From: Lentisphaerota bacterium
GTDB lineage: Bacteria; Verrucomicrobiota; Kiritimatiellia; UBA8416; JAUUYL01
Direction of reading: 5' to 3'
Assembly (NCBI GenBank): GCA_030590485.1
Contig: JAUUYL010000013.1
Coordinates: 1 to 42,599 of the forward strand
DNA: 42,599 nt
Part shown: piece by piece, positions 4,528-25,585 of the stretch
Layout: each line of letters begins with the position of its first letter
How positions within the stretch are numbered: the stretch's first letter is position 1
The notes under the pieces: generated by a model
Databases searched by the model: none
Seen by the model: only the letters and a program-made list of their open reading frames with translations
Told to the model about the DNA's origin: nothing
Translations under genes and position numbers: made by a program

Positions 4528-4563
4528 GTTTTGCCTGAGACGTTCCGGCGCGGGAGGGAAGGA

Positions 4564-6024
4564 ATGTCCATAAAGATTAATCTGCTCCAACTCAAGGAGC
4601 ATGGTTCTGTTGCTGAGGTCAAGCAGGACGTGGTTCACGTTACAGGCCTGACCAATTGTATGAACGGTCAGCTGGTGACCATAGGTGATGCCACGCAGGG
4701 CGTAATTCTGGGGTTCGATGGCGAGTATGTACTTGTTCTTATCGTTAAGAGTCTGTCCAAGATCAAGCCTGGCGACAAGGTTATCACCAAAATAGACGAT
4801 TTCAGGGTCCCGGTGGGCGATGAGTTTATCGGGCGGCAGGTTAATGCGCTTGCCGAGCCGATCGATGGCGACGGTCCGATCAAGGAATCCATGACAGGCC
4901 CGATATTTGCAAAAGCCCCGGGGGTGCTTGAGCGCGACCCGTTGAATGAAGTTCTGGCTACCGGTATTAAGATGGTCGACATGACTCTTCCTATAGGTAA
5001 GGGGCAGAGAATGCTTATTATCGGGGATCGAATGACAGGCAAGACTGCCGTTGCCGTTGATACTATCATTAATCAAAAAGGTAAAAATGTTATCTGTATA
5101 TATTGCTGTATCGGTAAGTCTGAAGCGTCTCTGACCAAGGTTACTGACACATTTGACAGACACGGGGTATGGGATTATACAATGGTGGTTTCTGCTTCGG
5201 CTGCGGATCCAATGGGGCAGCAGTATCTGGTGCCTTATGTCGCCTGTAGTTTTGGCGAGTATTTCATGCACGAGAAACAGGCTGATGTTCTGGTTGTGTT
5301 CGATGACTTTACCAAGCATGCCTGGGCGTATCGCCAAATCTCTTTATTGCTGGAACGTGCGCCAGGACGCGATGCGTATCCCGGTGATATATTCTACATC
5401 CATTCTCAGCTTGTTGAGCGCGCGGGCAAGATGAAACCGGAAAAGGGCGGTGGCACCATGACACATCTGCCTATCGTTGAGACATTACAGGGTGACTTCG
5501 CCGGCTATATTCCATCAAACATTATTTCAATGACTGATGGGCAGATATTTCTTAATACAATGCTTTTTGGTGAAGGATTCAAGCCTGCCATTGATATGGG
5601 GCTGTCGGTTTCTCGTATTGGAAGCAAGGTGCAATGGCCTGCCATGAAGAAACCAACGGGCATGCTGAAGTTGGATTTTATCCGCTATAAGGAGCTGGAG
5701 AAGCTGACACGTATTAAAGCTGGTGTTTCCGCGGAGGTGGAGGCGCGACTTGCCGCTGGCCGGACATTGGAGGAGTTTCTTAAGCAGGATGAGAATGCAC
5801 CCGTTGCGCTGGAGAATCAGGTGATTGCACTTTACGCTCTGCAGAACGGTTTTCTTGAGGGCGTGGTGCCTGCTGATGTACGTGGCAGGCTCGAGCAATT
5901 ATTGAATCAAATCAGAATGAATTGCTCTGATACAGTCAAAAAACTGGTGGAATCAGGGAAAATGACGGATGACATCACGGAGGTGCTTGATGAGCAAATC
6001 GCTAAGTTCAATCCCGCTGTTTAA
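4564..6024 (+). CDS. atpA: F-type ATPase subunit alpha, copy 1 (arginine finger present)
   Basis: The 486-residue protein aligns along its length with F1 alpha subunits. It has the P-loop GDRMTGKT (Lys160; the usual form is GDRQTGKT), IGK where IGQ is usual, DDFTKHAWAYRQ, PGRDAYPGDIFY, SMTDGQIFL, and GLSVSRIG with the arginine finger at Arg351. It ends with a normal alpha C-terminal helical domain. ATG 4564 is chosen because GGGAGGGAAGG lies directly upstream; a TTG 33 bp earlier would only add unrelated residues. Only about 13 residues precede the beta-barrel motif GSVAEV, against about 28 in E. coli, so the N-terminal helix that binds delta is missing or very short. The gene overlaps copy 2 by 35 bp. 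With Arg351 it can complete catalytic sites on beta, so it is probably the functional alpha. Confidence 0.95.
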   Translation: MSIKINLLQLKEHGSVAEVKQDVVHVTGLTNCMNGQLVTIGDATQGVILGFDGEYVLVLIVKSLSKIKPGDKVITKIDDFRVPVGDEFIGRQVNALAEPIDGDGPIKESMTGPIFAKAPGVLERDPLNEVLATGIKMVDMTLPIGKGQRMLIIGDRMTGKTAVAVDTIINQKGKNVICIYCCIGKSEASLTKVTDTFDRHGVWDYTMVVSASAADPMGQQYLVPYVACSFGEYFMHEKQADVLVVFDDFTKHAWAYRQISLLLERAPGRDAYPGDIFYIHSQLVERAGKMKPEKGGGTMTHLPIVETLQGDFAGYIPSNIISMTDGQIFLNTMLFGEGFKPAIDMGLSVSRIGSKVQWPAMKKPTGMLKLDFIRYKELEKLTRIKAGVSAEVEARLAAGRTLEEFLKQDENAPVALENQVIALYALQNGFLEGVVPADVRGRLEQLLNQIRMNCSDTVKKLVESGKMTDDITEVLDEQIAKFNPAV

Positions 6025-7546
6025 GATGAAGGTCGAGGAAAAGGGGCAGATTAAGGACATTAAGGAGATTATTGTCCGTATTGATGGTTTGCCTACTTGC
6101 CTGAATGGTCAGATTATCGATATGGGCGATGGGGTCAAGGGCATCATAATGGGTTATGATGAAGATGACGTTCTGGTGCTTGTACTTGGTGATCCCGGTA
6201 AGCTCAAGATGGGCAAGGAAATTAAGGGCATAAGCGAACCGTTTGAGATTCCTGTGTCAAATGCGCTTGTCGGCAGAATGATCGGTGCCATGGGCGAGCC
6301 GTACGATCAGGGCGGTGAGATTGAAGCGGAAAAAATGGTTCCGGTCTTCAGGGATTCCCCGCCGATCACGAAGAGGGCACAGATCGATGAGTTTATTCCT
6401 AGCGGCACTAAGATCATTGATATGCTTATTCCTCTGGCAAAGGGGCAGCGGCAGTTGATTCTCGGCGACAGGATGACGGGAAAGACCGTTATAGGTGTTG
6501 ATGCTATATTGAGCCAGAAGGGACGCGATGTGCTTTGCATCTATTGCGCTATCGGTAAATCTCTTGCCAATTTGACCAAGGTAATAGGAACTCTTCGTGA
6601 TGCTGACGCTCTGGAATATACCACGCTTGTTGTGGCTACCGACAATTCGCCAGTGGGCGAACAGTATATCGTGCCGTATTCAGCTGCTGCTGTGGCAGAG
6701 TATTTTGCGGCGCAGGATAAAGATGTGCTTGTTGTTATTGATGATTTGACGAAGCATGCATGGGCGTACCGTCAGCTTTCGTTGCTTCTTGAACGACCGC
6801 CCGGACGCGAGGCGTATCCCGGTGATATATTCTATGTCCAGACACAGTTGATGGAGCGGGCCGGAAAGTTCAGCGATGACCATGGCGGCGGATCAATAAC
6901 GTTTCTTGGCGTGGCGGAGACGCTCCAGAGCGATCTGACGGGGTTTATTCCTTCTAATCTGGCGTCAATGTGTGATGGACAGATATTCCTGAGTAGTGCG
7001 ATTTATGCTGAGGGATTCCGACCTGCCATCGATGCTAATGTCTCGCTGTCTATTGTTGGAGGCAAAACACAACCACCAGCTTTGAAGGAGTTGAGTAGAA
7101 GTTTAAGGACAGATTATGCCAAGTTTAATGAGGTTGTAAAGCTGAGCAAGCTGTCGTCCGGTCTCACAGGTGAGGCCGCCAGGGTGGTTGCTAAAGGTAA
7201 TGTGATTCAAGCAGTTTTTCAGCAGATGGAGTATAAGCCAATATCGTTGCAGGAGGATATTGTCCTGCTTTATGCTGTGGAAAAAGGGATATTGGTTCCT
7301 CTCTCCGATGATGACAGAACAAAGTTTTGCAATGAAATATTTGCATTTGCCACGGCGGGACATGCGTCCCTGATTGACGGCATAAGTGAAAGTACGGAAT
7401 TGACAGATGAACTCAGTCGGGGATTGGATGGGCTTATGGAGGATTATTTTGCCCAGGTGGGCGTGTCGACTGAGGTGGCGGCTGAGACGGAAAAGGGGGC
7501 AGATGCAACAGAAGGAGAAGAAACCGCTGAAACGCCTGCAGAATGA
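5990..7546 (+). CDS. atpA: F-type ATPase alpha-like subunit, copy 2 (arginine finger lost)
   Basis: This 518-residue alpha paralogue keeps the P-loop GDRMTGKT (Lys165), IGK, DDLTKHAWAYRQ, PPGREAYPGDIFY and SMCDGQIFL. The segment that is normally LSVSRVG reads VSLSIVGG, so the arginine finger is Ile355 (codon ATT at 7052-7054). It shares the Q-to-M P-loop change, IGK and TKHAWAYRQ with copy 1, which suggests duplication of an already divergent alpha. The start at ATG 5990 is set by GGAGGT six bases upstream and lies inside the end of copy 1 (translational coupling); ATG 6026 is an alternative. The C-terminus adds an acidic tail of about 30 residues rich in Glu, Ala and Thr. If it enters the hexamer, the beta site it faces should hydrolyse poorly. 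Its role could be regulatory or structural; that is inference. Confidence 0.92.
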   Translation: MSKSLSSIPLFKMKVEEKGQIKDIKEIIVRIDGLPTCLNGQIIDMGDGVKGIIMGYDEDDVLVLVLGDPGKLKMGKEIKGISEPFEIPVSNALVGRMIGAMGEPYDQGGEIEAEKMVPVFRDSPPITKRAQIDEFIPSGTKIIDMLIPLAKGQRQLILGDRMTGKTVIGVDAILSQKGRDVLCIYCAIGKSLANLTKVIGTLRDADALEYTTLVVATDNSPVGEQYIVPYSAAAVAEYFAAQDKDVLVVIDDLTKHAWAYRQLSLLLERPPGREAYPGDIFYVQTQLMERAGKFSDDHGGGSITFLGVAETLQSDLTGFIPSNLASMCDGQIFLSSAIYAEGFRPAIDANVSLSIVGGKTQPPALKELSRSLRTDYAKFNEVVKLSKLSSGLTGEAARVVAKGNVIQAVFQQMEYKPISLQEDIVLLYAVEKGILVPLSDDDRTKFCNEIFAFATAGHASLIDGISESTELTDELSRGLDGLMEDYFAQVGVSTEVAAETEKGADATEGEETAETPAE

Positions 7547-7866
7547 TTGGGGGGATTGTGGGCTTATGGGAGAAGAGAATTAGCCGCCGATGGCCGCCGA
7601 TGGACGCTGATGGGGACTTGTGGGCTTAGGGATGAAGAGAATTTGCCGCCGATGGACGCCGATGGCCGCCGATGGGGAGGATTTGATTGTGGGCTTATGG
7701 GAGAAGAGAATTGGCCGCCGATGGACGCTGATGGGGAGGATGGGGGGATTGTGGGCTTAGGGATGAAGAGAATTGGCCGCCGATGGACGCTGATGGGGAG
7801 GATGGGGGGATTGTGGGCTTAGGGATGAAGAGAATTAGCCGCCGATGGGGAGGATTTGATTGTGGG
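7547..7866. repeat. Tandem array of a ~60-70 bp composite repeat between atpA2 and atpC
   Basis: Five imperfect units follow the plan GATTGTGGGCTTAGGGATGA, then AGAGAATTRGCCGCCGATGG, then ACGCTGATGGGGAGGATGG. The array fills nearly all of the 345-bp gap between the alpha2 and epsilon genes. It is open in one frame and would give a repetitive GRRELAADGRRW-type peptide, but this is a by-product of the repeat. Single copies of the same composite are at 2831-2870 and 15080-15162. Confidence 0.85.
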
Positions 7867-7867
7867 C

Positions 7868-7891
7868 TTTGACGATTTGAACGACTAAAAC
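7868..7891 (+). repeat. AACGA-type heptamer word abutting the epsilon start
   Basis: TTTGACGATTTGAACGACTA runs almost into the ATG at 7892. No Shine-Dalgarno sequence is visible. Similar words precede the starts at 8778 and 13846. Confidence 0.5.
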
Positions 7892-12152: not shown

Positions 12153-13784
12153 ATGAAACTTGCTGATAGATTGGTAGAGAAGGGGTTGTTGACGAAGGCG
12201 CAGCTTGAAAAGGCTTCGACGTTGTCGCGGGAGACCTATAAGCCGTTGCCTCAGATTATTCGTGAAGAGAATCTGGTCAGTGAAGCGGATCTTCTTGGCG
12301 TAATGGCAGAACATCATGGCATGGATTTTGTCGTTCTTGCCGATATAGCCATTAACCAGAAGGCGATTAAGAGCGTCTCGGCCAAGCTGGCTGCGCATTA
12401 TTCCGTTATGCCAACTGACCTGGATGGCTCTACATTGACACTTGCGGTGTCTAATCCTTTGGACATGGGGCCGGTTGAGGATATAGAGACTAATCTGGGT
12501 CTGCGTGTTCGGCGCGTGCTTGCATGTCACGAAGACATAATGAAGGCATTACGCAAGCATTATGGCGTTGGCGCCGATACCGTTGAGAAAATACTCGCTG
12601 GAACATCTGATCATGATGATGTCATTGTGCTCGAGGAATCTCATGATCTTGAGAAGATGGCTGAGGATGCGTCTGTCGTAAAACTGGTTAATCAGCTTCT
12701 GCAGGAGGCTATCAAGGATCGTGCTACTGATATTCATTTCGAAATGCACCGGGGTGAGATTGTTGTGCGTCGCAGGATTGATGGTATCATGTACGACACA
12801 AGCATTCCCAAGAATATGCTTCTGCTTTATCCGGCAATCGTCTCGAGGATAAAGTTGATGTCCGGCTTGAATATTGTGGAGAGACGAATGCCGCAGGATG
12901 GCCGTGCAAGGGTCAAGATACAAAGCGCAAACTATGACTTACGGATATCTATCGTTCCCGCTATCCATGGCGAGGATATCGTTATCAGGATATTGCCGTC
13001 CACAATGCTGTTCGATATAGGGAAGCTCGGGTATTCCGATGAGCATCAGAAGTTGCTGTCTCATTATATCAACCAGCCGCACGGTATCATCTTTGTGACA
13101 GGTCCGACGGGAAGCGGCAAGAGTACCACTCTGTACGCCTGCATGAGTCAGCTTAACACCAGGGATCGAAAGATTATTACGATTGAAGATCCTGTGGAGT
13201 ATGAGCTGAGGGGGATAACTCAGACTCAGGTCAATACGAAGATAGGATTGACGTTCGCTCATTCCCTGCGAAGTATGTTAAGGCATGATCCAGATATAAT
13301 GATGGTCGGTGAGGTTAGAGATAAGGAGACCGCAGAAATAGCCACAGCCACCGCGATGACCGGACACCTTGTGCTGAGCACATTGCATACAAATGACGCG
13401 GCTGGAGGTGCTGTACGTTTGATCGATATGGGCATCGATCCCTATCTGGTCACTTCAACAGTACAGCTGTTTATCGCGCAGAGACTCGTCAGGGTGATTT
13501 GTCCTGATTGCAGGGAGAGTTATGAGGCTGGAGGCAGGACTCTTTACAGGGGTGCTGGATGTAAGAAATGTAATAAAAGCGGGTTCCAGGGGCGCGTGGC
13601 GATAGCTGAGTTTCTGCCGTTGATTCCGGAGATACAGGAACTGATCATAGCAAGATCATCGGCAAAGGAAATCCGTGAGAAAGCAAATTCGCTTGGAATG
13701 AAAACCCTGAGTCAGGATGGCGAGGACAAGGTAACGCAGGGTATCACAACGGTCGAAGAACTTTTACGAGTAACATCGATTTAG
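12153..13784 (+). CDS. gspE: Type II secretion / type IV pilus assembly ATPase GspE/PilB
   Basis: The 543-residue cytoplasmic hexameric ATPase drives pseudopilus extension. The N-terminal T2SSE/MshEN domain (1-140) begins LADRLVEKGLLTKAQLEKA. The catalytic core has Walker A GPTGSGKST, the Asp box ITIEDPVE, Walker B MMVGEVRDKETAE and the His box HLVLSTLHTNDA. Two zinc-binding pairs, CPDC and CKKC, follow near residues 450-475, then the GRVAIAEFL stretch typical of GspE/PilB. All catalytic motifs are intact. It heads a run of pseudopilin and assembly genes on the same strand. The lack of PilT- or PilC-type partners leaves secretion system versus pilus open. Confidence 0.96.
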   Translation: MKLADRLVEKGLLTKAQLEKASTLSRETYKPLPQIIREENLVSEADLLGVMAEHHGMDFVVLADIAINQKAIKSVSAKLAAHYSVMPTDLDGSTLTLAVSNPLDMGPVEDIETNLGLRVRRVLACHEDIMKALRKHYGVGADTVEKILAGTSDHDDVIVLEESHDLEKMAEDASVVKLVNQLLQEAIKDRATDIHFEMHRGEIVVRRRIDGIMYDTSIPKNMLLLYPAIVSRIKLMSGLNIVERRMPQDGRARVKIQSANYDLRISIVPAIHGEDIVIRILPSTMLFDIGKLGYSDEHQKLLSHYINQPHGIIFVTGPTGSGKSTTLYACMSQLNTRDRKIITIEDPVEYELRGITQTQVNTKIGLTFAHSLRSMLRHDPDIMMVGEVRDKETAEIATATAMTGHLVLSTLHTNDAAGGAVRLIDMGIDPYLVTSTVQLFIAQRLVRVICPDCRESYEAGGRTLYRGAGCKKCNKSGFQGRVAIAEFLPLIPEIQELIIARSSAKEIREKANSLGMKTLSQDGEDKVTQGITTVEELLRVTSI

Positions 13785-13845: not shown

Positions 13846-15054
13846 ATGAAAACATACATCTATAAAGCTAAGGTTGGGCCCGGCAAGGAAGTGGAGGGCG
13901 AGTTACAGGCTGAGTCCAGCGATGCTGCGGCGGCGAGTCTGGATGCTTTAGGTTATGTGCCGGTTTCGGTGAAGGAGAAGCCTGTTGGCTCTGGCGGATC
14001 GGTAAAAAGTGCTTTCCGCCGCAGGGTCAGCTTCAGGGATGTCACGGTCTTTACGCGTCAGCTGGCGAGTCTTACCAAATCGGGTGTCCCGATATTGAGG
14101 GCGTTATCAACTATAGCGGAACAGACCGAGAACCCGGAGTTTGCCGTTGTCGTTCAGGATATAGAAGGTATTGTGAGGGATGGTAATATGCTCTCCGGGG
14201 CGCTCAAGAAATATCCAGAACTTTTTCCAGAGTTGTATGTCAGCATGATTCGAGCCGGGGAGTCTGGCGGGGTATTGGAAAACATTCTTTTCCGGCTTTC
14301 CGAGGCACGGGAAAGTGAGGACGAGCTGACGAGGAAAGTGAAGTCCGCAGTCGCGTATCCTCTGCTTATTGTAATCGTGGGAATAATAACGGTTGGCGTG
14401 CTGTTGACATTCTTTTTGCCTAAGATTGTGGTTCTTTTTAAGGATTATGATGATTTGCCTCTGCCTACCAGGATGATAATGGGGTTGAGCGATTTCTTTG
14501 CAGGCTATTGGGCATGGATGATTGTGATCGTAATGCTTATGGCTGTGATTTTCAAGAAGCTGGCGTCGATGGAAAAGGGCCGCACATTTGTCGATAGAAT
14601 AAAAATACGCTTTCCGCTGGTAGGAAAGTTTATTCTGCTTTCTGATATTGCCCGTTTCGCAAGGACTCTGGCACTCTTAATCGATGCGGGAATCTCTATA
14701 GACAGGGCTCTTGACCTCAGTGCTGATACACTGAGTAATTCTTTGCTTAGAGAAGAAATTAAAATCCTGAAGCGAAAGACGGTTCAGGAAGGAGCGTCAG
14801 TATCGAGTGGCTTGAAGAACTCTGAATATTTCCCACCGCTTGTCTCTAATATGACGGCTGTGGGCGAAGAGGGCGGACGCATGGATGAATCTTTACTGGA
14901 AGTGGCAGACTTCTACGACAAGGAGATTGATACGTTGAGCAAAATGGCTACGAGCCTGTTGGAGCCAATACTTATTCTGGTTGTAGGGCTTATTGTCGGG
15001 TTTATTGTCGCTTCCATGTTGTTGCCAATATTCCAGCTGGGAACGTCGTTGTAG
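13846..15054 (+). CDS. gspF: Type II secretion / pilus inner-membrane platform protein GspF/PilC
   Basis: The 402-residue polytopic protein organises the inner-membrane platform and interacts with GspE. It opens with the short YKAKVGPGKEVEGELQAES domain, then has two T2SSF helical repeats. The first contains FTRQLASLTKSGVPILRAL and SMIRAGESGG; the second contains FARTLALLIDAGISIDRAL and MTAVGEEGGRMDESL. Membrane helices lie near residues 170-195, 220-240 and 370-395. Length and motifs are normal for the family. Confidence 0.96.
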   Translation: MKTYIYKAKVGPGKEVEGELQAESSDAAAASLDALGYVPVSVKEKPVGSGGSVKSAFRRRVSFRDVTVFTRQLASLTKSGVPILRALSTIAEQTENPEFAVVVQDIEGIVRDGNMLSGALKKYPELFPELYVSMIRAGESGGVLENILFRLSEARESEDELTRKVKSAVAYPLLIVIVGIITVGVLLTFFLPKIVVLFKDYDDLPLPTRMIMGLSDFFAGYWAWMIVIVMLMAVIFKKLASMEKGRTFVDRIKIRFPLVGKFILLSDIARFARTLALLIDAGISIDRALDLSADTLSNSLLREEIKILKRKTVQEGASVSSGLKNSEYFPPLVSNMTAVGEEGGRMDESLLEVADFYDKEIDTLSKMATSLLEPILILVVGLIVGFIVASMLLPIFQLGTSL

Positions 15055-15191: not shown

Positions 15192-15262
15192 AAGGTAACA
15201 AAGGTAATGAAGGTAGAGACTTGTGGGCTCTGTTCACGTTTTACGTTTCACGTTTCACTCTT
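15192..15262. repeat. 9-bp (AAGGTAAYR) and 7-bp (CACGTTT) repeats overlapping a gene start
   Basis: AAGGTAACA, AAGGTAATG, AAGGTAGAG (15192-15218) contain the ATG at 15207. CACGTTT, TACGTTT, CACGTTT, CACTCTT (15235-15262) encode part of the signal peptide of the same gene. Confidence 0.75.
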
Positions 15263-16025
15263 CGTTTCACTCTTCTTGTTTTCTTCGCAGGTTCTTTTTG
15301 CGGGGTCCGAGTGGAAGCTGACTAAGGGTAAGCATTTCGTAATCCATTACAAAGAGGATAAGAAATTCTCTGAGCAGGTTCTGCGACAGGCGGAGAAGCA
15401 TTATAAGCGAATCACTCATGATCTCGGATATACCAAGCATGGGAATTTCTGGCTGTGGGATAATAGAGCAAATATATATCTTTATTCAACAAGGGAGAAG
15501 TTTGTTAAGGCGGTGGGGGCCCCGAAATGGGCGACAGGAAAGGCGGATTACGAGAAAAGGACCATAGCTGGAGTCGAAACCAGTCAGACCTTCCTCGAGT
15601 CCGTGCTTCCGCATGAGATGGGGCATTTGGTGTTCAGGGATTTTATAGGCTTTAAGAATAAGGCACCCCTGTGGCTGGATGAAGGTGTTGCCCAGTGGGC
15701 GGACAAAGAAACCAATATCAGGGCTGAAAGAGCCGCTGTTCGTTTATATAAAAAGAAGCAATTGATGTCTCTTGCCGCTTTGACTGCCATGGATGTCAGA
15801 AAAGTCACTGATACAGGGAAAGCCGCTGAATTTTATGCTCAGGCTGCCAGCCTGGTCGGGTTTATGATCGAGAAATATGGAGCAGAAAGGTTCACTAAGT
15901 TTTGCAGAAAACTCAGGGATGAGAGTTCCATTGACGATGCTTTAAGATTTACATATCCAGAAGGATTGCGTAGTATAGACGAGCTTGAACGACAGTGGTT
16001 AAAAAGTTTCGGAGGTGCAAAATGA
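15207..16025 (+). CDS. Exported gluzincin-type zinc metallopeptidase (peptidase MA / DUF1570-like)
   Basis: The 272-residue protein has an N-terminal hydrophobic export signal (VSLFVSLFLFSSQVLFA, cleavage near residue 33). Its zinc site is HEMGH, with a downstream Glu in LWLDEGVAQW, as in the peptidase MA clan, so it should be an active periplasmic or envelope peptidase. The start is ATG 15207. This start and the signal peptide are encoded in 9-bp and 7-bp repeats of the kind otherwise found between genes. It lies between gspF and gspG and its stop overlaps the gspG start (ATGA), so it is co-expressed with the secretion genes. It has no prepilin peptidase (GspO/PilD) features; the substrate is unknown. 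Confidence 0.82.
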   Translation: MKVETCGLCSRFTFHVSLFVSLFLFSSQVLFAGSEWKLTKGKHFVIHYKEDKKFSEQVLRQAEKHYKRITHDLGYTKHGNFWLWDNRANIYLYSTREKFVKAVGAPKWATGKADYEKRTIAGVETSQTFLESVLPHEMGHLVFRDFIGFKNKAPLWLDEGVAQWADKETNIRAERAAVRLYKKKQLMSLAALTAMDVRKVTDTGKAAEFYAQAASLVGFMIEKYGAERFTKFCRKLRDESSIDDALRFTYPEGLRSIDELERQWLKSFGGAK

Positions 16026-16417
16026 TTAAGGATAGAGCTAGATCGGGCTTCACGTTAATTGAGCTTATGGTGGTCGTGATTATTATTGCGGCACTTGCAG
16101 GTATGGTGCTTCCGAGAGTGTTGCCAGCATCTGACGCGGCTAAGGCCAAGATTGCCAGAGGTGACATTGCAAATATAACTACCTCAATACAGCTTTACAA
16201 ACTTCATGAAGGTTCGTATCCCAAGAGTCTTGCGGACCTGCGCAAGAAATCGACATCCGGGGATTGGAAGGGTTCTTATCTGGAAAAGGCGGCTATTGAC
16301 CCCTGGAAACGCATGTATCATTACAAATATCCCGGCGGGCACGATAGCACGTTTGATTTGTGGTCAGACGGTGCCGAGACGTTAACTGCTGACGACAACA
16401 TAAACAGCTGGGAGTGA
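16022..16417 (+). CDS. gspG: Major pseudopilin GspG
   Basis: The 131-residue pseudopilin has a short leader, prepilin cleavage at G|FTLIELMVVVIII with Glu at +5, and the GspG pattern (DIANITTSIQLYKLHEGSYP, AAIDPWKRMYHY, FDLWSDGAE). ATG 16022 is preferred over an earlier ATG at 15995 because GGAGGT precedes it by six bases and it overlaps the previous stop by four bases. It forms the shaft of the pseudopilus. The C-terminal calcium-site region of GspG (Asp-rich) is represented by SDGAETLTADD. Confidence 0.95.
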   Translation: MIKDRARSGFTLIELMVVVIIIAALAGMVLPRVLPASDAAKAKIARGDIANITTSIQLYKLHEGSYPKSLADLRKKSTSGDWKGSYLEKAAIDPWKRMYHYKYPGGHDSTFDLWSDGAETLTADDNINSWE

Positions 16418-16836
16418 GCGCTCTGTTGCCTAAACGATTAATGCATGCGCGGAGTCGGAGTGGTTTCACTCTGGTCGAACTTCTTATTTCCGTAGTAATA
16501 CTCTCTATTGGTGTTGTTGCTGTGTTGCATGCCTTTGAGAGATCCTTGTTTGCCCTTGGCTCCGCACGTGACCATCTCTGGTCCAATCTCCTGATTCGAG
16601 AGAAAATATCCGAGATAGAGGTCGGGCTGATTACTGGCGACAGTGAATCTATTGATTCCGGCATGGGCGATTTCGATGAGCCGTATGAAGGCTTTGCCTG
16701 GGAGTCATCTAATGAAGAGTTTGCCATACAGGAGTCGGCAGAAGGCGTCACAAACAAGGTCTTGTCTATAGAGCTGACGATATGGCGTCGCGGTGTTAAC
16801 AGGGATTATGTGGTGCAAACCCTTAGAGCTTATTGA
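16414..16836 (+). CDS. gspI: Minor pseudopilin GspI-like
   Basis: The 140-residue protein (132 if ATG 16441 is used) has the prepilin motif SGFTLVELLISVVIL, a LLIREKISEIE stretch typical of GspI, and a small beta domain with a Trp near WESSNEEF. The listed start is a GTG overlapping the gspG stop; ATG 16441 gives a more usual leader (MHARSRSG). Its place between gspG and gspJ supports GspI over GspH. Confidence 0.82.
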   Translation: MSALLPKRLMHARSRSGFTLVELLISVVILSIGVVAVLHAFERSLFALGSARDHLWSNLLIREKISEIEVGLITGDSESIDSGMGDFDEPYEGFAWESSNEEFAIQESAEGVTNKVLSIELTIWRRGVNRDYVVQTLRAY

Positions 16837-16838
16837 TA

Positions 16839-17462
16839 ATGAAAAATCTGCAAAAACAAAAATCTTCCTCAACTTCGGCGTTTACGCTTATTGAGCTTTT
16901 GGTTGTGACGTTGATGCTTGGTCTTGTGGCTGGCGCCATTTCGGCCTGTCTGACCGGCGGGATGAGGGCGTGGGAAAGTGTACAGAATTTCAATTCACTC
17001 GAACTGAATGTTCTGCCGCCATTGCTGTCCATTGAGCGGGAAATGAGAAACTCCATGGATTTCTATGGCATAGAGGTTGAGGGCGGTGAGCAGGGGATAC
17101 AATTCGCCGCATTGGTCCCTGTCAGCAACGACCCGGATTCGCCACTGCATATCGGGACGGTTAAATATTATTTTGAGTCCAGCAGGAAGGTACTGCTTCG
17201 CAAGGCGTGGGTGTATAAGGAAGCAGAACCTGACAGGCCGGAAATAATCATTTCCGGTCTTGGTGATATCGGTTTTGAATATTTCTACACATCGGAAGCT
17301 GATGGTGTTACGTCGGGAGTTTGGGATGAGTACAGGGAATCGGGCACGAATTACTTAAATGCCGTCAGGATCAGATTGACGTCAGGGGTTGGCCGGAGTG
17401 AGACGGAGTTGGTGCGGACTATCGTTCTGCCCGTAACACGATACGTGAAGAGTGAAACGTGA
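16839..17462 (+). CDS. gspJ: Minor pseudopilin GspJ-like
   Basis: The 207-residue protein begins MKNLQKQKSSSTS followed by A|FTLIELLVVTLML, so position -1 of the prepilin site is Ala rather than the usual Gly. The middle contains LPPLLSIEREMRNSMDF and FAALVPVSND, and a later part GDIGFEYFY, as in GspJ. ATG 16839 is two bases after the gspI stop. The last codons and stop lie inside a heptamer repeat (17444-17478), so the C-terminal YVKSET is encoded by repeat DNA. Confidence 0.85.
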   Translation: MKNLQKQKSSSTSAFTLIELLVVTLMLGLVAGAISACLTGGMRAWESVQNFNSLELNVLPPLLSIEREMRNSMDFYGIEVEGGEQGIQFAALVPVSNDPDSPLHIGTVKYYFESSRKVLLRKAWVYKEAEPDRPEIIISGLGDIGFEYFYTSEADGVTSGVWDEYRESGTNYLNAVRIRLTSGVGRSETELVRTIVLPVTRYVKSET

Positions 17463-17560: not shown

Positions 17561-18277
17561 ATGAGAGTTGATGATATGAAAAAAGGAAGTGTACTGATTG
17601 TGGTCTTGTGGGCGCTTTTCTTTCTGGGGGCGCTTGCGGTTTCGATAGGCACAAAGGCTGCGGCGAGTATTCGGCTGGCAGAGCACTTAAAGGCGGCTTC
17701 AATGGTGAACCATGTTGCGAGCGCGGGAGTTGCCCGGGCGGTGGCGGCAATAAGGTCGGGTAATGAGGAGATCCTGGCTGGTTCCGGCTCAGAGTATTGG
17801 AGTCGTGATAATCCTGCGGTTGAAGGGGGCGTTTTTTCTGTTGTTTTTCTGGATATGTATGACGATCAGCAATCTGTTACCAACTATGGCGTGATATGCG
17901 AGTCGTCGAGGACCAATATCAATAATATGACTCAAGTCAGGGGGCTTTTGCAGAATATGGCAGATAGAGCGTCGGCGGAGGGGCTAGTGGAAAATGTCAG
18001 GCAGTACAGGTTGGCCAAGAAAGCATTGACAAAAGGCCGTTCAAACGGCAAATTTGAGTCTATTTACGAAATTTTACTTGTGGATGGAATGAACGACGAA
18101 CTGTTTGAGGAGATGGAGCCATCTGTAACGGTTTTTGATTGCGATTGTTTCAGCGGTATTTCAAGGGCCAGGATTTTTTCTGGTTCCGGCGATGATGATG
18201 CGTTTGTTATAGCAGAGGGTCAGATAGAATTTGTGTTTAACAGGAAAAAAGACAAGATAGTTTACTGGAAGCAGTAG
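17561..18277 (+). CDS. gspK: Minor pseudopilin GspK-like
   Basis: The 238-residue protein has the start KK|GSVLIVVLWALFFLGALAV of GspK, which lacks the +5 Glu as usual for this tip pseudopilin. A later stretch GKFESIYEILLVDGMNDELFE corresponds to the GspK helical (SAM-like) domain, and DCDCFSGISRARI to the following strands. It is shorter than typical GspK (about 300-330). TTGGAG precedes ATG 17561; ATG 17576 is an alternative. It would cap the pseudopilus together with GspI and GspJ. Confidence 0.85.
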   Translation: MRVDDMKKGSVLIVVLWALFFLGALAVSIGTKAAASIRLAEHLKAASMVNHVASAGVARAVAAIRSGNEEILAGSGSEYWSRDNPAVEGGVFSVVFLDMYDDQQSVTNYGVICESSRTNINNMTQVRGLLQNMADRASAEGLVENVRQYRLAKKALTKGRSNGKFESIYEILLVDGMNDELFEEMEPSVTVFDCDCFSGISRARIFSGSGDDDAFVIAEGQIEFVFNRKKDKIVYWKQ

Positions 18278-20329: not shown

Positions 20330-21730
20330 ATGAGTACAGATGACATCCCTGATGTAGCACCGGAGTACGCACCCAGCAATGAAACTGACTGGGAATCGGT
20401 GGGGCGGGCGTTACCGGAGACTCTTGATCCTGTAATGACAAAGGCCTTGATTCAGAGGTATATCGAGACAGAACGACACAGGAACAGGCGTGTTCTTCTA
20501 TGGATAAGCGGTATATTTCTCTTTGTGGTGCTTCTGATACTTGTAATGTTTATTTCGATAGGTGTGGTTGTTCTCAAGAAGTCCGTTTCCGCCGCCGATA
20601 CGGCCGAAAAGATGACCCTTCAAACGTCAGCCTATGCTGCGGAAGTAGTGGGTATGTCTAATAAACTGGGCCTCCTTGAACGGAACACTGAGGGCATTAA
20701 GAGTTTAGTGGATGAAAAGGAGATGCTGGCAAAAAAGAAACAAAAGATTCTCCAATCTGACCTGAAGCGTTTCAGTGCGTGGGTTTCTAAAAAGAATAAG
20801 AGTGAGAAGGACGCCATTATATTGATGGAGGGGAAAATCAAGGAGCTCGAAGCAACCTCCGCCATTCGGCAAAAAGAGCTTGAGCAGATCAGAGTGAAGT
20901 ACGCCGCAGTTATGGAGGTTGCAGCAGGAATGGGCGCTCAGGCCTTTACGATGGCGTCAGTTGCATCGGAGAAAGACGAGCCGGATGACGTTGTTACTAC
21001 TGTTTTGAGTGAAAAGGATACTGCGTCTGACGGCGCCACGGTTGCGTCTGCCAGTACATCGCAGGGCAAGACTGCCAGGTTGTCTGCCGGAGCTGTATCT
21101 GTAGTGTCGTTCCCCGACGGGGACAGGTACAGGGGGTCGTTCAAGGGCGGACTGTTTCATGGATGGGGGGTATATACTTATGCCAGTGGAGACAGGTACG
21201 AGGGGGATTTTGAAAGCGATATGAAAAGCGGAAGCGGAACTTTGTTTTTTGCGAATGGCGATAAGTATGTCGGGAGATTTAAGAACGACATGCAGAACGG
21301 ACAAGGTACGTTCTATATCAGCGACGGGGAACGTTATGTAGGTGCGTTTGTGAACAGCAGGATGACAGGGAAGGGGACTCGCTTTTATAATTCGGGAAAT
21401 AAATATGAGGGCGATTTCAGAAACGATTTACGGCATGGCAATGGAATTTTAACGTTTCAAAACGGCGATATATACAAGGGCGAATTGCGTGACGACAAGA
21501 GAACTGGGAAGGGTACGTATATCTTTACTGATGGAGCCAGATATATCGGCGACTTCGATGATGGCCGGAGACATGGCCGGGGACGATATATTTATTCTGG
21601 CGGCGAAGAATTCATTGGCGAGTTCCGGGACGGAAAAAGAGAGGGTGTAGGCCTTTGTATTTATCCTAACGGTCAGCAGCTCAATGGGTTATGGAAAAAC
21701 GATGAGTTTGTTCGCGTAATAGAGAAGTAG
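20330..21730 (+). CDS. Membrane-anchored MORN-repeat protein in secretion operon
   Basis: The 466-residue protein has an acidic cytoplasmic N-terminus, a transmembrane helix (residues ~53-77), a charged coiled coil (~90-205), a low-complexity linker, and eight tandem 23-residue MORN repeats plus part of a ninth (~262-460). Each repeat follows the pattern (D/E)xYxGxF, then GxGTxxxxxG. MORN repeats form elongated beta-hairpin rods that bind lipid or protein. The gene starts one base after the GspM-like stop, so it is probably part of the secretion operon and stands where GspC or PilP might be expected. With the single membrane helix, the repeats should be periplasmic; that orientation is inferred. 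Confidence 0.88.
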   Translation: MSTDDIPDVAPEYAPSNETDWESVGRALPETLDPVMTKALIQRYIETERHRNRRVLLWISGIFLFVVLLILVMFISIGVVVLKKSVSAADTAEKMTLQTSAYAAEVVGMSNKLGLLERNTEGIKSLVDEKEMLAKKKQKILQSDLKRFSAWVSKKNKSEKDAIILMEGKIKELEATSAIRQKELEQIRVKYAAVMEVAAGMGAQAFTMASVASEKDEPDDVVTTVLSEKDTASDGATVASASTSQGKTARLSAGAVSVVSFPDGDRYRGSFKGGLFHGWGVYTYASGDRYEGDFESDMKSGSGTLFFANGDKYVGRFKNDMQNGQGTFYISDGERYVGAFVNSRMTGKGTRFYNSGNKYEGDFRNDLRHGNGILTFQNGDIYKGELRDDKRTGKGTYIFTDGARYIGDFDDGRRHGRGRYIYSGGEEFIGEFRDGKREGVGLCIYPNGQQLNGLWKNDEFVRVIEK

Positions 21731-21813: not shown

Positions 21814-23895
21814 ATGGTATGTCGTGGTTTCAAGTATAGCCTTATTCTGGTGTTGCTGGCAGGAATGTTCAGCCTGTCAGTTCAGGCCGCCGCCACTCTG
21901 CCTTTCAATGAGACGTTCGAGGATATTAACAGTTCTGATGGTGTATCAGGACTTAATGGATGGCTTGCAACTACTGCGGTTGTTGCCACAAATGCTACAG
22001 CGTTCGCTGGCACCAACTCTGCATATATTCCCGATACCGAATCGCTGACGAATGAAGCTACGGTGGCAGTGGATCAGAATGTATGGATTGAAGTTTATGC
22101 GAAGGTGACCTTGGAGGGTGTCGGTGTTTCGGGTCTGGTTCCGGCGTCGGATGTGGTTGCACAATTTTACTTCAATTCCGATGGTTACCCTGTAGTGCTT
22201 AATGGATCAACGACTAATTGGGTGATTTTGAGTCAGACCATGGCTGGTAATGCCTTTACTAATGTTGTCGTGGAAGGTGATTGGGTTCGGCTTTCAGTTT
22301 TCATGAACTACACGGATGAAACCTGGGCGCTGTTTGTTGACGGCGAGATGCTCGATGACGATATAGAATTCAATAAATCAACCAACAAGTATCAGGGGTT
22401 TGTCGTTGAAAACGAGACCTATATTGATAATTTCTGGATGAATACAGAACGTCCGGACGGTGACACTTCTAATTCGCTACCGCGTCTGCTTAGTGATACT
22501 GATGGGGATGGTATGGGCGATGCCTTCGAGTTGGATTATTGGGGCAATGTGACGTATGAGACAGGTACTGGTGATGCCGATGATGACGGACGCTCCAATG
22601 CTGAAGAATATAATATCACTCCGGATAGCAGCGATCCAACGAGTGCAGATAATTCGGATCAGTCAATCCCCTATAGGGAAGACTTTGAAAATGCCACGCT
22701 TGGCAGTAGTTATACGAATAGCAGCGGTTGGCATGCTATAGCGAACACCGGAATCATGAAAGTCGTGTCGGATACTTTCGAACTCCAGCAGGCCATGTCG
22801 CTGAGTAATGGCTTCATGAGTGTAGGGCTTTCGGGTACCAATGGAACGAATGTATGGATACAGATTTATATGAAACCTGTGGTACCGGAAAATGCCGCGG
22901 TGCCAGTTATAGGAGCCGCAGCAGTTGCAACGTTTTATGTTGCGAGTGGAGGTGTTCTCAGGGCTTCATCTGGTGGCGTTTTCTCGAACTGCGCGGAAAA
23001 TATACCGGCGGATACGTGGCTTGGGTTTGTCACTCATCTTGATTATACCACCGAGACTTGGGATCTTTATGTCGCAACCAACGGTGTTTTTGGTGAGAAT
23101 TTGGTTCGGGCTAACGATACGCCATTGGATTTTAGTAAGAGTTCATCACATCTGACAAACGTGATTATTGAGCTTTTTGCGGATGAGACCATGTATGTTG
23201 ATGTTCTGGCCGTCTCGCTCGCTCATACAAATATTGTTCCGGCATATTCCAATGTCGTTGCCTATGACAGGCTTGTGGGTGAGGCCAGAACCGCGTCAAT
23301 GCCACCATACACTTTTGCCTCCAATACTGTGGCCAGCACGCCAGCTGGTGATCTTGGTGAATACCTGTTGTGGGGGATGACCACCAATGATGAGTTGGTT
23401 GTCACTGTACCTACAAACATTCCGCAGGCAAGTCTGTATACTGTTGCTAATCAGGATGGAACAAATTATTGGCAGGGTGATGGCGCAGCTCCGGCGGCGA
23501 CCAATATATTCATAAACAAGGCCACAGCTTTGACGATGATGAAGAAATCCGGTCGCGATGAAGTTGTCTTTTATCCTTACAGTAATTATGTCGCTGAGGT
23601 TGGGAGTGTTGTCATTCTGGGGAATGCGGGCGTTTCAAATGGATGGAGTTACACAGGAACACCGTTTACTAATGATCGTGTGGTTAATCATGCATCGAAT
23701 GGGCTTATGCTTACCAATTTGGCAACGGCTGGCGACAGGATTTATCTCAGGGAATCAATAAGGCTTGTATTCACGTCAGACAAAAAGTGGCTGTACGGAA
23801 GGGGCGAGTCTAGTCACGTCATTGGTAAAGACGAGAAGTTCTGGTATTATAATCTGTCGGCCACGAGTTTTACTTGGACAGCTACAGGACCGTAG
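21814..23895 (+). CDS. Secreted protein with two LamG-like domains and calcium-binding linker
   Basis: The 693-residue protein has a clear signal peptide (YSLILVLLAGMFSLSVQA). Two related beta-sandwich domains (residues ~33-215 and ~288-470) both begin with (N/R)E(T/D)FE and contain VWI(E/Q)(V/I)Y.K, VAxFY and YT(D/T)ETW; they resemble LamG/concanavalin-type modules. Between them lie calcium-binding stretches DTDGDGMGDAFE (from residue 228) and DADDDGRSNAEEY. The C-terminal part is a further beta-rich region. AGGAG upstream of ATG 21814 is a good ribosome binding site. No sorting signal is seen at the C-terminus. It begins a group of three secreted proteins after the secretion operon. Confidence 0.85.
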   Translation: MVCRGFKYSLILVLLAGMFSLSVQAAATLPFNETFEDINSSDGVSGLNGWLATTAVVATNATAFAGTNSAYIPDTESLTNEATVAVDQNVWIEVYAKVTLEGVGVSGLVPASDVVAQFYFNSDGYPVVLNGSTTNWVILSQTMAGNAFTNVVVEGDWVRLSVFMNYTDETWALFVDGEMLDDDIEFNKSTNKYQGFVVENETYIDNFWMNTERPDGDTSNSLPRLLSDTDGDGMGDAFELDYWGNVTYETGTGDADDDGRSNAEEYNITPDSSDPTSADNSDQSIPYREDFENATLGSSYTNSSGWHAIANTGIMKVVSDTFELQQAMSLSNGFMSVGLSGTNGTNVWIQIYMKPVVPENAAVPVIGAAAVATFYVASGGVLRASSGGVFSNCAENIPADTWLGFVTHLDYTTETWDLYVATNGVFGENLVRANDTPLDFSKSSSHLTNVIIELFADETMYVDVLAVSLAHTNIVPAYSNVVAYDRLVGEARTASMPPYTFASNTVASTPAGDLGEYLLWGMTTNDELVVTVPTNIPQASLYTVANQDGTNYWQGDGAAPAATNIFINKATALTMMKKSGRDEVVFYPYSNYVAEVGSVVILGNAGVSNGWSYTGTPFTNDRVVNHASNGLMLTNLATAGDRIYLRESIRLVFTSDKKWLYGRGESSHVIGKDEKFWYYNLSATSFTWTATGP

Positions 23896-23897
23896 AT

Positions 23898-24887
23898 ATG
23901 AGAAAAATTAAAACTACATATATATTACTGACTTGTCTAGGGCTGTTAACTGCATCCCTTGGATTTAGTGCGGATGTTGATGTTATCGCCGCTGGCTTAA
24001 AGGGCACTGATGCAGAGAATGCTAGTTTTTCTTTTACGCCCGAGGGCTATATCACGATAATGTTTGGAGCAACTGGCGCGTTTCCAGCGCGTACGGCTGG
24101 GACAGTGCTGGCTGACGGCGGTGTGTTCTCAGGCGACTATACGGCCGCAGGAATTCATAAGGTTGGGTTCAGGATACGAAGCGAGTTACAGGTTGATGGC
24201 CCTGTTGTTGCGAGTGTTGTTTTTAAGAGCGGAAGTGGCAGAATCTGGATCAACAGGAATGTTGAGGTGTCGAATCAGGCCGGACTTTGGGTTGCCAATA
24301 ATATTGAGTTTACCAGGGCCGCAGGATGGGAACGTGATGGGCCAGGCAATCCTGATGTTCTTTGGGACATAGATATAAAAGATGTCGTAAATATAGGGAT
24401 ACGGTTGGCTCAGGTAGGAAGCCAGGCGCAATCCTACAGCATCGGCACGTTTGTCTTGCTCGACAGTAGCGGTACGGTTGTTGGGGCGGCTGGGCTTATG
24501 CCGTCCAGGGTGATGGACTTTTTTGCCACTGTCTATGGAATTTCAGATATCAATGATATTACCGATGAATTGAAAGACAAGGATAGCGATAGCGATGGGA
24601 TGAGCGACTGGTTAGAACTTATGGCTGGAACTGACCCTGAGGATAGCAACTCTATATTTGTCGCGAAAATAGTGGATTACGCGGCTGATGGAATTACGGT
24701 CAGCTGGCCTTGCGTGTCGGATGGTGTGTATAAGATCATGAGGCGAGAGGGGTTTGGTTCTGACTTTGGAGTGATAACGCTAGGCCTTGAACCTACACTT
24801 TCGGATATTGCTAATGGCAAAATGGAGCATAAAGACAGTTTTGCCCCAGGCCGTGGGCCATACATGTATAAGATTGTTAAGCAGTAG
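23898..24887 (+). CDS. Secreted protein with thrombospondin-type calcium-binding motif
   Basis: The 329-residue protein has a signal peptide (TTYILLTCLGLLTASLGFSA), a beta-rich body with many Gly and Val residues, and DKDSDSDGMSDWLELMAGTD near residue 228, a thrombospondin type 3-like calcium-binding stretch common in PVC surface proteins. A final beta domain (ITVSWPCVSDGVYKI) follows. ATG 23898 is two bases after the previous stop; an in-frame ATG at 23874 lies inside the previous gene and adds nothing. The function is unknown; it is probably co-transcribed with its neighbours. Confidence 0.8.
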   Translation: MRKIKTTYILLTCLGLLTASLGFSADVDVIAAGLKGTDAENASFSFTPEGYITIMFGATGAFPARTAGTVLADGGVFSGDYTAAGIHKVGFRIRSELQVDGPVVASVVFKSGSGRIWINRNVEVSNQAGLWVANNIEFTRAAGWERDGPGNPDVLWDIDIKDVVNIGIRLAQVGSQAQSYSIGTFVLLDSSGTVVGAAGLMPSRVMDFFATVYGISDINDITDELKDKDSDSDGMSDWLELMAGTDPEDSNSIFVAKIVDYAADGITVSWPCVSDGVYKIMRREGFGSDFGVITLGLEPTLSDIANGKMEHKDSFAPGRGPYMYKIVKQ

Positions 24888-24889
24888 TT

Positions 24890-25585
24890 ATGAATATTTT
24901 GAAAAGGAAAATATCACTGTTGGCCGTTGTTGCAGTATGCCTGCTGATAGGCACTGTTTTTTGTGATGCTACGGTGTATCTTGAGACATGGGATAGTGGT
25001 ACTTCCGGTTGGCAGATCAAGTCCGAGTTTGAGGGGGCTGCAGAAGGAACTCTAGCCAATTCGAGTGGATATCTCTCTATAAGCGCTTCGCCTGGATCGG
25101 CTGTTTTAACGGATATTATATTCGCTGACAGTAGTGCGGACGGCTCACTCATCGAGACGCATTTTTCTACTCAGGCGATATTCTTTACTTTTTATTCTAA
25201 TATGGATCCGACGTATCTTTATGCTTATGTTAAGGGTACGAATGTTTCTGGTGGTGATATTCTTTGGCTGAACGAATTATCATCGACCGCGGGATCAAAG
25301 TATGTTCAGTTGGGGTATGACAGCGGCAACGGCTGGGAAAATATGCTCGCTGCGTCAACTTTGGCGGATTGGACGGAGACACTGACTAAGTTTGATGAGG
25401 TTGGTATTGCAATCTGGTACCCCGGTGATGCCGGTCAGGAGTACGGAATAGACAATTTCACCATTGATGCAATGATTCCTGAACCGGAGACCTGGCTGAT
25501 GCTTGGGTTCGCGCTTCTATCTATTACGATTACTTTCCGACAGCAAATCAATGAAGCCGTGGTTAAAGTTCGGTCGGATACTTGA
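24890..25585 (+). CDS. PEP-CTERM protein
   Basis: The 231-residue protein has a signal peptide (ISLLAVVAVCLLIGTVFC) and a beta-sandwich body (VYLETWDSGTSGWQI, with a later GIDNFTIDA). The C-terminal sorting signal is a PEP motif at 197-199 (PEPETWLML), a hydrophobic segment (GFALLSITITF) and an Arg. PEP-CTERM proteins are processed by exosortase in the inner membrane; no exosortase gene is in this window. The tail after the Arg is about 15 residues longer than usual, and its last 23 bp overlap the end of the convergent parvulin gene, so read-through extension of the 3' end is possible. Confidence 0.85.
   Translation: MNILKRKISLLAVVAVCLLIGTVFCDATVYLETWDSGTSGWQIKSEFEGAAEGTLANSSGYLSISASPGSAVLTDIIFADSSADGSLIETHFSTQAIFFTFYSNMDPTYLYAYVKGTNVSGGDILWLNELSSTAGSKYVQLGYDSGNGWENMLAASTLADWTETLTKFDEVGIAIWYPGDAGQEYGIDNFTIDAMIPEPETWLMLGFALLSITITFRQQINEAVVKVRSDT

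Follow-up and report, generated by a model that had tools for sequence, protein, structure and literature searches.

A type II-like secretion operon of Kiritimatiellae-type bacteria ends with a gene for a conserved MORN-repeat membrane protein

The window, the whole stretch of 42,599 nucleotides analyzed here, is contig C77 of a 2.63-Mb, 134-contig genome with an estimated completeness of 90.8%. A secretion operon with the gene order gspE-F-G-I-J-K-L(pilM/N)-M lies within it, and a gene for a MORN-repeat membrane protein closes the operon (Table 1). GspE, GspF, GspG, the minor pseudopilins and GspL/PilM-N, taken together, mark the operon as type II secretion, with weak matches for GspK and GspJ. 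The letters I and J of two pseudopilin genes are our assumption from the usual operon order. A homologue of the Peptidase_MA gene within the operon was present in 7 of 31 relative loci. An earlier note on this DNA had named a GspL/GspM pair in front of the MORN gene. The GspL half holds in the form of a PilM-PilN fusion, while the GspM call is weak, with no Pfam family above cut-off in this protein. The position of the MORN gene was correctly described: open reading frames, Pfam and hydropathy confirm a MORN membrane protein behind the GspM-like gene, with exactly one base between the end of the GspM-like frame (20328) and the start of the MORN frame (20330).

An ATP synthase operon with two alpha-like genes sits directly upstream of gspE. 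The two genes (4531-6024 and 5969-7546) are neighboring, overlapping and full-length, and both carry a GDRMTGKT P-loop. Short degenerate direct repeats, gccgatggacgctgatgggg-like, were seen by eye in a gap between ATP synthase genes (7560-7880). On the other side of the MORN gene, three genes often found there in relatives may encode substrates or surface partners. The last of them resembles PEP-CTERM proteins in a match below cut-off.

Table 1 Features of the secretion operon and of the MORN-repeat protein, in positions of the window.
Feature	Position	Strand	Basis
gspE with MshEN domain	12153..13784	+	T2SSE 3.1e-130, MshEN 6.2e-16
gspF	13846..15054	+	T2SSF 4.1e-60
Peptidase MA-like (Peptidase_MA_2) zinc peptidase gene within operon	15207..16025	+	PF13485 3.6e-15
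gspG, major pseudopilin	16022..16417	+	T2SSG 2.9e-20
gspI-like pseudopilin	16414..16836	+	N_methyl 3.6e-8; position
gspJ-like pseudopilin	16833..17462	+	N_methyl 0.001, below cut-off; position
gspK-like minor pseudopilin	17561..18277	+	T2SSK_1st 1.6e-5, just under cut-off
PilM-PilN fusion (GspL equivalent), 484 aa	18279..19733	+	PilM_2 1.2e-15, PilN 8.1e-7
GspM-like gene, 200 aa	19726..20328	+	NCBIfam T2SS_GspM E 9.6e-4, below cut-off; position
MORN-repeat membrane protein, 466 aa	20330..21730	+	ATG start; ORF, Pfam, hydropathy, AlphaFold2, synteny
Predicted transmembrane segment, about residues 57-83	20498..20578	+	hydropathy; K/R flank bias
Putative periplasmic part of long helix, residues 84-198	20579..20923	+	AlphaFold2 helix 34-198
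Low-confidence linker, residues 199-256	20924..21097	+	pLDDT < 50 over residues 197-253
Eight MORN repeats, 23 aa each, residues 267-450	21128..21679	+	Pfam; pLDDT ~97; MORN1 crystal structure match
Three genes often after MORN gene (starts 21814, 23874, 24890)	21814..25585	+	relative loci

Pfam MORN (PF02493) was matched in eight stretches of the 466-aa protein with an E value of 2.4e-42 (140.7 bits against a cut-off of 22.5). The repeats start at residues 267, 290, 313, 336, 359, 382, 405 and 428, in an exact 23-aa register, and repeats 1, 5 and 7 vary less than the other five. One transmembrane stretch was found by hydropathy (window 52-90). These results bear out the earlier description of a single-pass protein with eight MORN repeats. 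The note also called MORN repeats rare in bacterial secretion loci; as a repeat type they are not rare here, and the window's own genome has 16 MORN matches in four proteins. A 470-aa open reading frame on contig C112 of this genome (L081, 90-1502) shows ankyrin-like repeats, judged by eye, followed by MORN repeats.

AlphaFold2, run with 16 homologues, predicted one continuous helix over residues 34-198 with a pLDDT of about 75-90 for most of it, and a MORN sheet over residues 257-463 with a pLDDT of about 97. The pTM of the model was 0.48, and the relative placement of the parts is not fixed by it. If straight, the putative periplasmic part of the helix would be about 17 nm long (an estimate from 115 residues at 0.15 nm each). 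The heptad score was 0.52 against a shuffle mean of 0.37, a value reached by 31 of 500 shuffles. The label of a coiled coil is therefore fair with respect to the predicted helix, and the sequence signal behind it is weak. Lysine and arginine were more frequent before than after the transmembrane stretch in 26 of 31 homologues and equal in 2; the window protein has 4 before and 3 after. Because of this bias, which is a statistical rule, a topology with the N-terminus inside and the C-terminus in the periplasm is suggested.

The Pfam scan (E <= 1) gave MORN and four unrelated families below cut-off. HR-type domains of T2SSC or T2SSB, PDZ and PilP were not among the matches. By its domains, as far as sequence profiles can tell, the MORN protein is not GspC, GspB or PilP. 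Comparison with solved structures aligned 201 residues of the MORN part with MORN1 crystal structures (Z 24.8, rmsd 1.1), while the N-terminal part gave weak coiled-coil-like matches and nothing more.

Relatives were searched in 115 related genomes with residues 1-254 as the query, which is free of MORN repeats and avoids general MORN-repeat matches. Thirty-two genomes matched. The number became 31, the window's included, once G111 was left out (E 2.9e-5, no synteny); its protein, L071, has zero MORN repeats. All homologues not cut by a contig end carry 4 to 8 MORN repeats, though they were found through the N-terminus alone. Eight repeats are present in sixteen homologues, the window's included, and fourteen of these keep the strict 23-aa register without an indel. 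Contig ends truncate L045, L059 and L074, whose repeats were not countable; L054 and L056, with 3 and 5 repeats, run up to a contig end and may have more. A scan of the genome contigs with the whole MORN protein returned no relative because its patterns were too specific, although relatives exist.

The MORN gene follows a gspM homologue on the same strand in 29 of the 30 relative loci, and the 30th contig begins at the MORN gene. Strand and position were thus identical in 29 of 29 scorable loci, and the synteny with pilMNO/gsp genes that had been proposed as a check was found. An orthologue of the operon's pilM/N gene was recognized in 34 of 115 genomes at an E value of 1.9e-60 or better, with all others at 4e-24 or weaker. 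A syntenic MORN gene occurred in 31 of the 34 genomes with this pilM/N gene and in 0 of the 81 genomes without it. The MORN gene is conserved at a fixed place, and this is not chance. Three genomes (G018, G071 and G097) have the operon and the GspC-like locus described below but no MORN gene, and other genes follow gspM there (L112-L114). Since these genomes keep the machine genes, the MORN gene is not essential to the machine.

Named relatives with the operon are metagenome-assembled genomes titled Kiritimatiellae, Kiritimatiellia, Lentisphaerae or Verrucomicrobia. When a phylum-wide sample was searched with an N-terminal profile, 14 of 387 genomes matched strongly (E < 1e-15), all in the window's order and class. 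The other 32 of the 46 matching genomes had E values between 2.4e-10 and 1e-3 and were left out of the orthologue count. Seven weak-match regions were inspected (G000, G015, G019, G264, G271, G289 and G328). Six of them hold a protein with a similar transmembrane/coiled-coil start and no MORN repeats, and no protein with such a start was seen in the region from G271 (L222). On contig C28 of the window's own genome (L218, 9012-10022), a MORN-less protein with an N-terminus like that of the MORN gene product adjoins a 1451-aa GYF_2 protein. Genes similar to this MORN-less protein occur in several families of the class.

The slot after gspM was also followed through 65 named loci found with a PilM/N profile. 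The MORN gene stood there in 19 of the 65, none of them titled Omnitrophota. One of the 19 is a full MORN gene with eight repeats on a 3.5-kb contig titled Phycisphaeraceae bacterium (L162, 1935-3374), which may reflect mis-binning or transfer. Another transmembrane/coiled-coil protein, A4, filled the slot in 8 of the 28 loci in which gspM is followed by 1 kb or more of DNA and no MORN gene; the remaining 20 have neither protein. A4, from Omnitrophota, resembles the MORN protein in its slot after gspM, its N-terminal transmembrane segment, its long helices and its small C-terminal beta domain; it differs in having no MORN repeats. This beta domain weakly resembles FlgT_C, is itself poorly modeled and belongs to a poor overall model (pTM 0.22). 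A test for homology of A4 and the MORN protein over their whole length did not show it, as hhalign paired only 19 coiled-coil columns. The two proteins are apparently unrelated, and their shared slot may be an analogy.

The neighborhood of the window operon showed neither a secretin nor a GspC, as the earlier note had stated. Five secretin matches were found in the window's own genome; all lie on other contigs, and none is tied to the window operon. On C9 the match belongs to a complete type II-like operon, on C88 to a type IV pilus-like locus, on C79 to a PilM/N locus that lacks E/F nearby and on C62 to a D-E-F cluster; the match on C42 is a short secretin-like protein. A search with T2SSC returned no match in this genome, and no locus of the GspC-like type described below was found in the assembly. 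An ExeA-like ATPase was found only on C88, with type IV pilus-like pilM-Q genes; therefore, there is no trace of a missing GspC-like locus in this genome. A genome-wide search for PilP was uninformative, as its positive control gave no match. Besides the short secretin-like protein, the C42 neighborhood (L079, 2516-6311) encodes a protein kinase and a tandem pair of 250-aa proteins with an 'RKPFG' motif. The tandem proteins (FSRYDIILSRKPFG) were tried as the GspC of this system and rejected as not specific to it: they do not align with the GspC-like family, and their own family is found in 44 of 55 genomes, whether or not these have the operon.

Many secretins of about 530-630 aa are found in the window's order, and 20 such loci were read. 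A bitopic protein of one family, A1, lies directly upstream of the secretin in 15 of the 20, a coiled-coil/TPR protein lies downstream in 13, and an ExeA-like ATPase, recognized by motif, lies upstream in at least 8. A1 was named GspC-like because its member in G001 scores 27.2 bits with Pfam T2SSC, where the cut-off is 27, the G018 member matches below this cut-off and three other members have no Pfam match at all. A search of solved structures with the A1 profile returned none that was relevant. The T2SSB-type protein L125 was rejected as a relative of A1 (probability 1.1%).

A1 was found in 29 of 115 genomes at E < 1e-13, a count that drops seven weak genomes (G052, G067, G077, G091, G106, G109 and G110; E 1.7e-7 to 0.006). 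Of the 34 genomes with the operon, 27 have A1, as do 2 of the 81 that lack the operon. Outside the window's order, 7 genomes have both loci, 0 and 0 have one of them and 77 have neither, for which Fisher's test gives p 2.2e-10 with kinship ignored; the seven genomes with both fall in five families. Both loci lie on one contig, 12-39 kb apart, in 5 of the 27 genomes that have both. Because the A1 locus and the operon co-occur and share a contig in five genomes, the operon and the GspC-like/secretin/TPR locus look like one type II system encoded in two places. On this reading of the gene content, the MORN protein is therefore an extra part. The operon without an A1 match was seen in seven genomes: 000, 002, 004, 017, 022, 025 and 030, the window's own among them. 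All are metagenome-assembled genomes, 68-92% complete, and the absence may reflect loss or incomplete assembly.

The earlier note had proposed that the MORN protein stands in for GspC or PilP in the connection to the outer membrane, by which the inner-membrane platform would be tied to the secretin. The predicted shape of the protein suits a link: it has an anchor, a long helix and a head. The window's own genome, with neither a T2SSC match nor a GspC-like locus, and the 7 of 34 operon genomes without a GspC-like match agree with such a replacement. However, a GspC-like protein accompanies the operon in the other 27 genomes and adjoins the secretin in most of the loci read, one of its members passes the T2SSC cut-off, the seven genomes without it are incomplete and the MORN protein has no GspC-type domain. 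Of the two observations named beforehand as counting against replacement, a gspC-like gene beside a secretin elsewhere was found in the relatives, and the synteny of the MORN gene was kept. Replacement of GspC fails for the family and is not supported; it could apply solely to genomes like the window's, and we regard it as quite improbable. A link role as such would fit the predicted shape.

The MORN protein may instead be an envelope protein that shares the transcript and works elsewhere, for example with the downstream PEP-CTERM-type genes. This would fit the three genomes that keep the operon without the MORN gene, the MORN-less protein with a similar N-terminus beside the GYF_2 protein, and the conservation of the downstream genes as neighbors: of 17 relative loci that extend at least 3.5 kb downstream, 12 have two or all three of them. 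Yet no syntenic MORN copy without the pilM/N gene was found among the 115 genomes, and 4 of the 17 loci with room show none of the three downstream genes and nonetheless keep gspM. We consider such a passenger unlikely. It is more doubtful still that the MORN part is cytoplasmic and acts from inside as a regulator or tether of the assembly ATPase or of the membrane. The N-terminal anchor is uncleaved, and the solved MORN proteins among the fold matches are largely cytosolic or axonemal; against this, the charge bias across the transmembrane stretch in 26 of 31 homologues favors the periplasm, and a cytoplasmic MORN part is very improbable.

We propose that the MORN protein is probably an additional, lineage-specific, inner-membrane-anchored periplasmic scaffold or spacer of the Kiritimatiellota type II-like system, present beside GspC. 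It would be anchored in the inner membrane and expose its MORN part to the periplasm, where the roughly 17-nm helix together with the linker would place the MORN head far from the membrane anchor. As a protein-protein module, this head would self-associate through its last repeats and/or bind a partner, for which the secretin, the TPR protein, the pseudopilus and peptidoglycan are candidates. Lying between the inner-membrane platform and the pore in the outer membrane, such a protein would have a spacer or scaffold role and would not take over that of GspC. The proposal of an anchored spacer with a protein-binding head was based on the predicted helix, the charge bias and the published behavior of MORN arrays. 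MORN1 structures are described as dimerizing through their C-termini, and MORN arrays are termed protein-protein modules, with lipid binding doubted (PMC7725318).

There is a bolder model, though we would not bet on it. The protein, anchored in the inner-membrane platform, would then be a trans-envelope strut resembling junctophilin in mirror image, and its helix of about 17 nm would let the MORN head grip the outer membrane, the secretin or the TPR partner of the secretin. It might be the main link in lineages like the window's, where no GspC-like gene was found, and in some Omnitrophota an unrelated coiled-coil protein with another head might do the same job.

The proposed scaffold was compared with known systems. 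GspC and GspB of type II systems are single-pass inner-membrane proteins with a periplasmic part, as predicted for the MORN protein, and GspB is described as anchoring the secretin to the inner membrane and peptidoglycan (PMC9239104). In contrast, the MORN protein has a helix and a MORN head with no HR or PDZ domain detected, its gene lies at the gspL/M end and not beside the secretin, and its family has a separate GspC-like protein. Junctophilins have eight MORN motifs, a helical region and one membrane anchor, and are described as tethering two membranes (PMC8934682). The MORN part matches junctophilin-2 in fold (Z 20.4, rmsd 2.5, 211 aligned). In junctophilin the MORN motifs are N-terminal (6+2 with a joining region) and the anchor is C-terminal, whereas this order is reversed in the MORN protein, with an N-terminal anchor and eight contiguous C-terminal repeats. 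The MORN protein perhaps works like a junctophilin; the likeness is an analogy and not homology of the whole proteins.

TIC100, a MORN-domain protein of a chloroplast protein translocon, is described as associated with the inner envelope and as most likely located in the intermembrane space (PMC9338805). It has three recognized MORN motifs, serves import and not export, and has no shared architecture shown with the MORN protein, which makes it a distant parallel. TIC/TOC-TIC chains, which we take to be TIC100, were among the weak fold matches of the MORN part (Z 7.9-8.9). MORN1 of protists has the MORN-array fold in common with the MORN protein (35-38% identity, Z about 24). Unlike the MORN protein, MORN1 has no transmembrane helix; it is a soluble cytoskeletal protein.

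The limited open-access literature searched yielded nothing on MORN proteins as parts of type II or type IV pilus systems. The MORN gene is real, conserved and unreported in that literature, and the mechanism proposed for it is modest. What is known of how type II systems bridge the periplasm comes from a few proteobacterial models. An additional conserved component from a deep lineage that is mostly uncultured would be a concrete new part of type II systems, built on a fold otherwise known from eukaryotic membrane tethers and the chloroplast translocon. The occupants of the slot after gspM hint that it was perhaps filled independently by different anchor-spacer-head proteins. In Kiritimatiellae-type genomes, where several other secretin systems occur beside this one, the MORN gene can serve as a marker for this system.
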